Assembly: GCA_026415355.1 (NCBI GenBank) | Contig: JAOAHF010000002.1 | Span: 62,001 to 126,000 of the forward strand | Direction of reading: 5' to 3' | DNA: 64,000 bases | DNA from: Brevinematales bacterium | GTDB taxonomy: Bacteria > Spirochaetota > Brevinematia > DTOW01 | Shown here: one piece after another, positions 9,281 through 13,154 of the stretch | How positions within the stretch are numbered: position 1 is the stretch's first letter | How the letters are laid out: each line of letters starts with the position of its first letter | Translations under genes and position numbers: made by a program | The notes under the pieces: model-generated | Databases searched by the model: none | What the model was told of the DNA's origin: nothing | The model's input: only the letters and a program-made list of their open reading frames with translations

Positions 9281-11725
9281 TTAAACAACGATCATTTTCA
9301 AAAAGAAATTCTTACCCAAAAACCCATCCCTACTCGATACTTCAAAAACCTTGTAATCTCCGATTTTCAAGTTCGTGTACGTTCTATTTCTAACAAATAT
9401 AGTGTTTTCCTCATCTTGAATAAAAAAATTACCATATTTGTCAACATAAGGAATAAAACCAAATATTCTTGCTTCATCTTGAACAAAAGCATCTTTCACA
9501 CTACCAACCTTGATTCTTTCACGATATCCTCTAAAATTACTTCTCAGCAGATAAAGAGAAAAACCAAGTATCTTAAACTCATCCCTTATGAGAATAGACT
9601 TTCTATCATAGTAGGATAAACTACCACCTATCCTCAATAGATTCTCTCTAGTATCAATACTATCAAAACAACCTATCTTAATGAGTTTGTTACTCTCTCT
9701 AGGAAAATCTTTTCCAACTCTTGCGTAAAATTCAGAAAAGTTCTTAAAATTACCGTTTTGTCTTTCTTTAACTATTCTTTCAAGAACACCCATCTCTACA
9801 CCAGAAACAGACAAAGGCAAAATATATCTACCATTATCGTATTTTATCTTACTAATGGAAGATAAGTTTATATCAATTTCAACGGAAATTCCCAAGTTTT
9901 TCAAAAATTGAAAAAGTACAAAACTATTTCTTCGAGATTTCAAAACACCTTTTATCAGAGTAATTATAAACTTAACCTCATCTTCTTGTTTTAACCTTAT
10001 GTAGGATAGAAAATTATAAAAGTTTGGAACTTCATATGACTTTATACCTACTATATTCTTATACTTTGCTACAAATCTGATGATCTTTTCTGAAGTCTGT
10101 TTATCAATGTTATTATCAACAAGAAGTTTAAAAAGCTCAACTTCACCTACTCCAGTATACTTTTTATCTCTGGACCAAAGAATATTAAGTAATACTTCTA
10201 TATCCTCATCTTTAACATCTCTAAAAAGACTATCCACAAAAATAGGTAACTTTTGAGATATCAACTCATCAACCATTGGCTTGTAATATGGCTTTAATGC
10301 TAACACTTTTCCTAGGTAAAAAAGTTTTAAAAGACTATTGATTCCCGATACCTCATATTCATTTCTAAGTTTATTCCAAAAAACTGATATCGTATCTGGA
10401 GTCACAAACAATTTATCATTCTTGATAACACTTGAAATATTCCCCAAATTCCTACTACTAGGGAAATACTCTAATTTCTTAACATCTAGAACAACATCAT
10501 AGTACTTACCACAAAACTCTACAGGGACATTATCCTTGAATCTTATTCTCTTCCTCAAATAGCTACTAGAATAAAAAAGTCTATTACTCACTCTAAAACC
10601 ATAAACAGAATTTTTCAGCAAACTTTCAAGAACATCTCTATCCTCTTTAGGTAAACCCCTAATTTCATCACTAATAAAACTATATCTATAGTGCACAGGA
10701 TAAACTCTATGAAACAACTTATCTTCAAAGTTTCTATTGAGTATTTCAAGAAACTTTTCCTTAGACGAGACCACAACATCAACATGAAGTGGTTTTTCAA
10801 ACAAAATATGGCTTAGCGAAATAACTTTTGATTTATTTATCTTAATTAATCCCAACTTCTCAAATATAAACGACATTGACAACAAATTCGACGTTATAAC
10901 TCCATTACCCGAGAATTCTTCAAATGAATTTAATAACCTATAGAAAAACTCAGACAACCCCAGACTTGTAATTTTGTTAAATTCTTTTTTTATCTTTTCA
11001 TCAGGAGTAGCTTTTGACACTATTTTCTTCCACAAAAGTGAAGCAAAATATTCATCATTCTCTTGATATTTTGGATATTCATAATCCCTTATATCCTTCA
11101 ATACTTCAACAGTGTACAATATTTTACTCACTATCTGATTAGGTAGAAGTTCAACTTCTCTAAGCATTGAGAGAGCATTAGGAAACGAAGAAAAATTACG
11201 AATAAACTTCCTAACTATATTTTCATACTTTTCAAGATAACTAGGTGCTGTGGAGTACTTAAACGGAATTATATAATCAACCTTTGAAGAAGCAGTCTCA
11301 ACAAACTTAATATTATGATTGGTTATACCTAGGCCAACTTTTCCCAATAAAGATTCATAAAGATACTTGAAGTGTTCTAAATTACTCCCCGTGTAGAAAG
11401 CTACTATATTCAAGGATCTTAGATCTCTGATAGATATCTGCTCTTTTCTACCTATTATCTCAAGAGAAGAGAAATCCCTAGGAAGGATATATACTTTTAT
11501 TTTCTCATTTTGTCCACTTATATAATTCCTAATAGCAGGAAAAAATATAACAGAAGACTTCGGAAGATGTAGTATTTTCTCCATCCATAAGAAATTAGGA
11601 TCGGCTATTCCTATAGCTTTAAAACCGTTTTGTATTGCAAGCTTTTCAATAAGAGGTATTGTTAATATAGACTCTTTCGAGAAAGATGTATATACTCCTA
11701 TTAAACCTAAGGGTATTAATAACAT
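9281..11725 (-). CDS. Divergent DnaE-family protein, probably inactive as a polymerase
   Basis: 814 residues with the domain order of bacterial DNA polymerase III alpha but shorter than the usual 1,100-1,200. The N-terminal PHP region (about 1-60) aligns as VYTSFSKES and GIADPNF, so the metal-binding His residues of HTDYS and TDHGN are missing. Around 245-320 the palm reads GLSEFFYRLL then GNGVITSNLL where GPGRGSAAGS is expected, and LHVDVVV where PDIDIDF is expected, leaving one of the two paired catalytic Asp residues. The helix-hairpin-helix region (about 610-690, ending IKIGCFDSID) and an OB-like end (about 735-814) match DnaE well. The start is 3 nt after rplB, so translation is probably coupled. 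I infer a DNA-binding or structural paralogue; a fast-evolving active enzyme is less likely. Confidence 0.75.
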   Translation of the reverse strand: MLLIPLGLIGVYTSFSKESILTIPLIEKLAIQNGFKAIGIADPNFLWMEKILHLPKSSVIFFPAIRNYISGQNEKIKVYILPRDFSSLEIIGRKEQISIRDLRSLNIVAFYTGSNLEHFKYLYESLLGKVGLGITNHNIKFVETASSKVDYIIPFKYSTAPSYLEKYENIVRKFIRNFSSFPNALSMLREVELLPNQIVSKILYTVEVLKDIRDYEYPKYQENDEYFASLLWKKIVSKATPDEKIKKEFNKITSLGLSEFFYRLLNSFEEFSGNGVITSNLLSMSFIFEKLGLIKINKSKVISLSHILFEKPLHVDVVVSSKEKFLEILNRNFEDKLFHRVYPVHYRYSFISDEIRGLPKEDRDVLESLLKNSVYGFRVSNRLFYSSSYLRKRIRFKDNVPVEFCGKYYDVVLDVKKLEYFPSSRNLGNISSVIKNDKLFVTPDTISVFWNKLRNEYEVSGINSLLKLFYLGKVLALKPYYKPMVDELISQKLPIFVDSLFRDVKDEDIEVLLNILWSRDKKYTGVGEVELFKLLVDNNIDKQTSEKIIRFVAKYKNIVGIKSYEVPNFYNFLSYIRLKQEDEVKFIITLIKGVLKSRRNSFVLFQFLKNLGISVEIDINLSSISKIKYDNGRYILPLSVSGVEMGVLERIVKERQNGNFKNFSEFYARVGKDFPRESNKLIKIGCFDSIDTRENLLRIGGSLSYYDRKSILIRDEFKILGFSLYLLRSNFRGYRERIKVGSVKDAFVQDEARIFGFIPYVDKYGNFFIQDEENTIFVRNRTYTNLKIGDYKVFEVSSRDGFLGKNFFLKMIVV

Positions 11726-11728
11726 TAA

Positions 11729-12556
11729 CTATTTTCTTCTTTGGAGTATATACTTGTCAGTTGACTTATTTTTCTTCCTTGTTTTGTACCCTAAAGTTGG
11801 TTTAGCCCAAGGTGTCATTGGATATGGATATCCTTTTTGCTTACCACCTTCACCACCACCATGCGGATGATCAATTGGGTTCATTGCAACTCCTCTAACT
11901 TTTGGCTTTATACCTAACCACCTACTTCTACCTGCTTTACCTATTCTTATATTCACAACATCAGGGTTACTAACCTGTCCTATAGTAGCATAGCAATTCA
12001 ACAAAACCATTCTAATTTCACCCGAAGGCATTCTCAATATTGCATATTTACCTTCCTTAGCATCAAGTCTAGCAAACGTACCACCACCTCTAGCAATTTG
12101 TCCACCTCTACCTGGATACAACTCAACATTGTGTACCATAGTTCCAACAGGTATGTTCTTAAGAGGTAAAGCACAACCAAGTTCAATTGGTGCATTCTCG
12201 CCAGCCATTATTTTATCACCAACTTTTATACCAAGCGGTGCTAAAATATATCTTCTTTCACCATCTTCATAAACAACTCTACATATCCTAGCAGTTCTAT
12301 TAGGATCATACTCTATTGTTTCAACTCTAGCCCACATGTTTCTTTTATCTCTCTTAAAATCTATTATTCTGTAAAGCTTTTTGTGTCCACCACTTTTGGT
12401 GAAAACCGTCATTCTACCCAAATTGTTTCTTCCACCTTTTTTTCTTAACCCTACAGTTAACCCTTTATATGGTTCTTCAGCAGTTATCTCAGAAAAATCG
12501 TAACCCGTTCTATTTCTAGAACCATTTGTGACAGGTTTGTAAGTCTTGATACCCAT
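11729..12556 (-). CDS. rplB: 50S ribosomal protein L2
   Basis: 275 residues, full family length. L2 organises the peptidyl-transferase centre. The conserved C-terminal loop [12 protein letters not shown], with the His near the catalytic centre, is intact, as are GRNNLGRMT and [16 protein letters not shown] 12556 has GGAGGAG directly upstream; an in-frame TTG four codons earlier is part of that site. It follows rplW by 58 nt, but the rest of the S10 cluster (rpsJ, rplC, rplD before; rpsS, rplV, rpsC after) is absent, and a DnaE-like gene follows after 3 nt. Confidence 0.97.
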
Positions 12557-12614
12557 AAACTCCTCCAAACAAAATTTAGATTAAATCCAACAAAAACTAA
12601 TCTTTAACTAAAAC

Positions 12615-13010
12615 CTACTTCTTCTTTTCTTTTTCTTTCTGTTTATCTTTTTGCTTATCTTCCTTCTTAAAATCTCTTGCTTTAGATTGATCCTCTACTG
12701 GCTGTAATTCTTCAAATATAGGGATAATACCCCTAGAAAGTTTAATGTAAGCTTTCTTCCACCCTGATTTCCATCCTTCACTATATCTCACCCTACTTCT
12801 GAATATTTTTCTCTTTCTCGGAACAACTATAGTATTAACGGTTTCAACTTCAACCCCATAAAGCTTCTCAATTTCTTGCTTTATTGCCATTTTCGTAGCA
12901 TCTTTTCTCACTTTAAAAACATAATACCCCGTAGGGTTATTCTGTTTATCAAACATCATCAACTGCGCTTTCTCCGAAAGCAGCGGCGATATGATTATGG
13001 ATTTAGGCAT
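12615..13010 (-). CDS. rplW: 50S ribosomal protein L23
   Basis: 131 residues starting MPKSIIISPLLSEK, a normal L23 N-terminus that docks the signal-recognition and trigger-factor machinery at the exit tunnel. ATG 13010 has GGAGG upstream. The frame is open further back through the tRNA-Arg gene, but that extension is only a translation of the tRNA. The last 30 or so residues are an unusual Lys/Glu/Asp-rich tail beyond the common family end. Confidence 0.95.
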   Translation of the reverse strand: MPKSIIISPLLSEKAQLMMFDKQNNPTGYYVFKVRKDATKMAIKQEIEKLYGVEVETVNTIVVPRKRKIFRSRVRYSEGWKSGWKKAYIKLSRGIIPIFEELQPVEDQSKARDFKKEDKQKDKQKEKEKKK

Positions 13011-13030
13011 CGTATCCTCCAGTAGGAATG

Positions 13031-13103
13031 TGCGCCCAGCGGGACTCGAACCCACAACCCTCTGCTTAGAAGGCAGATGCTCTATCCTTTGAGCTATGGG
13101 CGC
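13031..13103 (-). tRNA. tRNA-Arg(TCT)
   Basis: A 73-nt cloverleaf on the - strand: acceptor stem GCGCCCA/TGGGCGC, anticodon stem TCTGC/GCAGA with anticodon TCT, and a T-loop GGTTCGAGTCC. CCA is not encoded. It reads AGA codons, which are very common in this genome. It leads directly into rplW. Confidence 0.96.
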
Positions 13104-13124: not shown

Positions 13125-13154
13125 ATTATAATAAACTAAACCATCTTTTATCAA
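13125..13154 (-). promoter_or_regulatory. Promoter of tRNA-Arg-rplW-rplB-DnaE-like operon
   Basis: On the - strand TTGATA (13149-13154) and TATAAT (13125-13130) with an 18-bp spacer, 21 nt before the tRNA 5' end. Confidence 0.65.

Follow-up and report, generated by a model that had tools for sequence, protein, structure and literature searches.

Polymerase relatives that are catalytically dead and kept under selection are known from the B family (PMC2527604, PMC2669801), the Y family (ImuB) and the X family (PMC12926913). ImuB, an inactive Y-family protein, is retained alongside an active polymerase (PMC12926913). Conserved polymerase derivatives with disrupted catalytic residues, for which a non-catalytic role has been proposed, also include the inactivated B-family polymerases of archaea and the C-terminal half of Pol epsilon (PMC2527604, PMC2669801). 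In the C family, that of the bacterial replicative polymerase DnaE (Pol III alpha), DnaE2/ImuC and the unassigned DnaEX class are additional, non-replicative DnaEs with no CTD and an inactive PHP domain (PMC3919608). A survey of the C family in 2014 left out fragments whose active site was not intact and made an intact site a condition of annotation (PMC3919608), and a survey in 2026 removed strongly diverged or truncated sequences ahead of its trees (PMC12926913), so dead C-family proteins would have escaped both by their very design. The open-access full texts searched describe no dead family of C-family (bacterial replicative) polymerases, and the dead DnaE family considered here looks to be undescribed.

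The window, a stretch of 64,000 nucleotides from a Brevinematales bacterium, is part of a 1.76 Mb genome in 80 contigs (G000). On its minus strand lies a gene for a protein of 814 aa with an ATG start (9281..11725). The original prediction of an intact 814-residue frame holds for this strand, where the frame runs from 11725 to 9281; the plus-strand reading of the same segment is full of stops. To judge from sequence comparison, the protein is a very divergent DnaE relative. The only Pfam match obtained with the single sequence is HHH_6 (E 1.2e-9, above the Pfam cut-off) at residues 617-693 (9647..9877, minus strand). NCBIfam, its error-prone polymerase model included, and phmmer against the PDB returned nothing relevant, and such single-sequence searches were judged too weak for this protein. 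The organism belongs to a family (f1) that forms one deep spirochaete-related lineage, and a profile built from the five members of f1 has a weak match to Thermus Pol III alpha (E 0.004). Against a 37-sequence DnaE profile, the same five-member profile aligns over residues 6-809 with 98% probability (E 1.3e-12), colinear through PHP, palm, fingers and HHH.

The main signal in this profile comparison is carried by residues 450-700, which are strong on their own (E 4e-14). Residues 1-250 score 28.7 against 22.2 for the best of 30 column shuffles, and residues 200-460 score 27.2 against 22.0; both segments fall in the correct DnaE register (that of the PHP domain for the first) and neither is significant alone, while residues 700-814 score no better than 30 column shuffles. 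The alignment along most of the length that was claimed from the sequence is thus strong in residues 450-700, weak in the N-terminal and palm parts and not above shuffles at the C-terminal end. An alignment with DnaE over most of the protein is likely, firm only from the end of the fingers to the HHH part. An AlphaFold model built on three sequences is of poor quality (pLDDT 43 over the whole chain and 53 for residues 1-275). With the poor whole-chain model, Foldseek gave hits below 1e-3 to eight Pol III alpha chains and to nothing else; these are quoted as support only, and a fold search with the model of residues 1-275 gave no hits.

The substitutions at the catalytic motifs are as the original prediction quoted them, all on the minus strand. 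The PHP-like N-terminal region (residues 1-200; 11126..11725), aligned weakly and in register, lacks the metal-site His residues (VYTSFS, ADPNF); across f1, HxH has become VYTSFS or VETSYS, and D-H has become DPNF and similar. GNGVIT (residues 273-278; 10892..10909) stands in place of GPGRGS, and only one Gly is kept in f1, where the GRGS motif is replaced by GNGVIT and its equivalents and the YRPGP segment of the fingers is missing or unrecognisable. PLHVDVVV (residues 312-319; 10769..10792) replaces PDIDVD: by profile alignment and family columns, the position of E. coli D401 is H or Y, and that of D403 is an Asp (D316) that is invariant in the five members of f1. One of the paired catalytic Asp residues is accordingly kept, as had been claimed from the sequence, in the profile alignment; MAFFT differs and sets D316 at the following Asp, which leaves the conclusion of a dead site unchanged. 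By the same profile alignment and family columns, FVTPDTISVFW (residues 440-450; 10376..10408) stands where DnaE has its D555 motif (KMDILG), and the D555 position varies between D, Y, H, N and S across the five members. An alignment with all three catalytic Asp residues (D401, D403 and D555) in place was not found for any of the five. On the evidence of these motifs, the protein is catalytically dead.

The original prediction held that the helix-hairpin-helix and OB-like ends are well kept and proposed binding to DNA or the clamp, and neither statement is borne out. Mean pairwise identity in f1 is 43.5% for the HHH region and 48% for the OB-like region (residues 741-814; 9284..9505, minus strand; assigned by position and not significant alone), against 54.6% for residues 201-330, the N-terminal part of the palm, which is the best-kept block. 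The hairpin glycines are not conserved: the DnaE1 of the same genome reads IKGFGE, and the five members of f1 read SGVEMG, KVSTK, RVNRV, RFNFK and RVKGS. A clamp motif of the QxxLF type (regular expression Q..[LMI][FLY]) is present as QNNLF in the organism's own DnaE1 and was found in none of the five. With the hairpin glycines and the clamp motif gone, it is doubtful that the protein acts directly on DNA.

A normal dnaE, whose absence would have spoken against a dead paralogue, is present elsewhere in the genome and complete (1161 aa; GPGRGS, PDIDVD, KMDILG, HLHTEYS), and it is the one match of a PF07733 search of that genome. This DnaE1 looks active; its activity is assumed from the intact motifs. 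The claim of a catalytically dead DnaE paralogue therefore stands, with the motifs lost in all members of f1 and a normal dnaE elsewhere. A conserved, intact homologue with disrupted catalytic residues, accompanied in the same genome by a paralogue with intact motifs, has the features of a pseudoenzyme. Compared with DnaE, the paralogue is shorter (about 814 aa against 1161) and is without the catalytic triad, GRGS, YRPGP, the PHP metal site, the hairpin glycines, the clamp motif and the CTD. Since these defining features were looked for and are missing, the protein is best filed, as far as its motifs tell, as a DnaE derivative and not as a DnaE polymerase.

The paralogue differs from DnaE2/ImuC in having no catalytic site, no match to the NCBIfam error-prone model and no Y-family or ImuB partner in the genome. 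Y-family genes (PF00817) are absent from all five f1 genomes and were found only in f4, one of the sister families f2 to f5; a mutasome of the ImuB/ImuC type is disfavoured for this reason. ImuB itself belongs to a different polymerase family, and the paralogue has neither a clamp motif nor a Y-family or ImuC partner that could be found. A role in the SOS response or a mutasome was rejected for lack of Y-family genes, despite a LexA DNA-binding domain in four of the five f1 genomes (G000:C7:22148-22333 and G002-G004); none was found in f2-f4. Replacement of a missing delta subunit was rejected as well, delta being found in four of the five. An RNase_T (DnaQ-fold) exonuclease was not found in the five f1 genomes (G000-G004), and every genome of f2-f5 has one; proofreading in f1 may depend on the DnaE1 PHP domain.

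The reading preferred here, held with about even confidence, is that the protein is a pseudoenzyme that arose from an ancient second DnaE and most likely works in replication or repair without catalysis, as an accessory or scaffold produced together with L23 and L2. An ancient second C-family polymerase would have lost both DNA synthesis and the nuclease chemistry of its PHP domain, and a degenerate version of the same chain would have been retained. Such a chain would act by binding protein, as an accessory or scaffold in DNA replication or repair with a presumed partner, and would be produced constitutively with the two ribosomal proteins from one tRNA-led transcript.

The gene order on the minus strand is tRNA-Arg(tct)–rplW–rplB–DnaE paralogue, which agrees with the coupling to rplB in a tRNA-Arg-led operon that had been proposed. 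The tRNA-Arg(tct) gene heads the operon (13030..13103), followed by rplW (L23; 12615..13010, likely ATG start at 13010) and rplB (L2; 11729..12556, likely ATG start at 12556), which ends 3 nt ahead of the paralogue. Immediately 5' of the tRNA gene is a promoter-like TTGATA-18-TATAAT (13125..13154, minus strand), a consensus match of 11/12; the promoter-like site directly before the paralogue scores only 9/12. The S10 ribosomal operon is split in f1, with rplW-rplB alone behind the tRNA-Arg (window 11729-13103); in the genome of the window, rpsS-rplV-rpsC lie on a different contig (G000:C10; L109 8076-9801). In f2, f3, f4 and f5, where readable, the order is the standard rplW-rplB-rpsS-rplV-rpsC.

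The search for the same gene beside rplB in relatives found it in all five sampled f1 genomes (G000-G004), always behind rplW-rplB and with tRNA-Arg ahead of rplW in each; the gap between rplB and the gene measures 3 nt in four species and 16 nt in the remaining one. The constancy of this setting, and the loss of the HHH hairpin glycines and the clamp motif, favour the main rival to a scaffold in replication or repair: that the DnaE-derived protein no longer takes part in DNA metabolism and works instead in translation or in the assembly of ribosomes. The case for it is otherwise one of gene adjacency, however, and because the S10 operon is broken only in f1, the gene may have landed beside rplB by rearrangement. 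No RNA-binding family is recognised in the protein either, and a function in translation is considered rather unlikely.

The orthologues in the five genomes, which represent two genera, all have intact frames, with 36-52% identity between the paralogue and those of G001-G004. Pairwise dN is 0.32-0.70 and dS is at or near saturation, so that omega can be given only where computable, where it is at most about 0.4. Codon positions one and two differ far less than position three, and invariant residues are spread across all regions of the protein. The dN/dS comparison thus indicates purifying selection, and the statement that the gene is not a decaying pseudogene is upheld by this selection and by intact frames in five species. 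It is nevertheless conceivable, if unlikely, that the gene is a leftover second polymerase under relaxed selection, of no important function and carried along by rplB. Fast evolution points this way (36-52% identity within f1, against 67-76% for DnaE1), as does the complete loss of the second DnaE in f5. Against it, a stop codon would result from about 5% of random single-base changes, and neither a stop nor a frameshift has appeared in five species despite near-saturated dS; second codon positions are conserved, and the invariant residues are not confined to any one region.

The distribution of the family is narrow. When 247 sampled genomes from the phylum were searched with a profile, full-length matches occurred only in the five f1 genomes, and a scan by pattern across about 85,000 species genomes found two loci, both with the f1 type of dead DnaE. 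A search of viral contigs found no homologues, and PADLOC gave no link to a defence system. Among other matches, one of 657 aa in G027, from another family, comes from a normal-looking dnaE that is cut off where the stretch stops, leaving its end part, and matches of 900-1013 aa in G032, G041 and G173 were rejected as dead forms, the catalytic Asp motifs being kept.

A second HHH_6 protein is encoded in every sampled family of the class except f5. In f3 and f4 it is a DnaE of 1014-1033 aa with intact motifs of the PDIDxD type and KxDxLG, which scores below the cut-off of the NCBIfam error-prone model and adjoins a gene for an LPP20-like lipoprotein. In f2 it is a dead form of 781-787 aa, known from three species and under purifying selection, in which the palm is largely gone and, by reading of the alignment, the hairpin glycines are lost too. 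The dead form of f2 also adjoins an LPP20-like lipoprotein gene (L044 8185-10548; L045 5772-8117; L046 7805-10168); it lies at the same place as the second DnaE of f3 and f4 and is colinear with it (E 5e-27). The lipoprotein gene, which encodes about 470-490 aa, is a constant neighbour of the second dnaE in f2, f3 and f4 (L013 3666-8121, L047 6838-11423, L048 6982-11517). In f1 it is found elsewhere in the genome and not beside the paralogue, and f5 is without both genes.

The f1 gene appears to descend from this second dnaE of the class and not from DnaE1. In a tree of the conserved C-terminal part, all 17 DnaE1 sequences fall in a single clade (99/100), with f1, f2 and the second DnaEs outside it. 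A duplication of the family's own DnaE1, an alternative concerning the ancestry of the gene and not its present function, is thereby made improbable; moreover, the f1 protein stops at the OB-like part and has no CTD, like the second DnaEs of f3 and f4 and unlike DnaE1. What speaks for such a duplication is that profile scores to DnaE1 and to the second DnaE are similar, and that the AU test only borderline rejects a grouping of f1 with its own DnaE1 (p 0.05); the same test does not settle where f1 belongs with respect to the second DnaEs (p 0.11).

The same C-part tree joins the dead forms of f1 and f2 at 93/88, which is not decisive, as long branches may pull. In the DnaE1 tree, a long branch divides f1 from f2-f5, and f2 clusters with f3 and f4 (86, not starred), from which it follows that catalysis was, on this tree, most likely lost separately in f1 and f2; a single inactivation, or long-branch attraction behind the grouping of the two, is possible. 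A broader proposal, tentative and less probable than its opposite, is that in this class a dead relative of Pol III alpha has become a structural part of the replication or repair machinery, an ancestral second DnaE having been inactivated separately in two families. It would be a bacterial C-family counterpart of the dead Pol epsilon module and the inactive archaeal PolB, which are B-family proteins of eukaryotes and archaea; the distribution of the paralogue is much narrower.

That the protein is still an active nuclease or polymerase, remodelled with shifted catalytic residues, is very improbable: D316 and several neighbouring His/Tyr positions are conserved ([HY]x-D-[IV]), but there is no conserved carboxylate at D555, no GRGS and no YRPGP, and the PHP histidines are gone.

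With a second DnaE that is active in some families, dead in others and missing from one, the class offers a natural comparison for the uses to which a polymerase chain can be put without synthesis. In f1, a C-family polymerase seems to have been turned to non-catalytic use, with a similar dead relative in a sister lineage.
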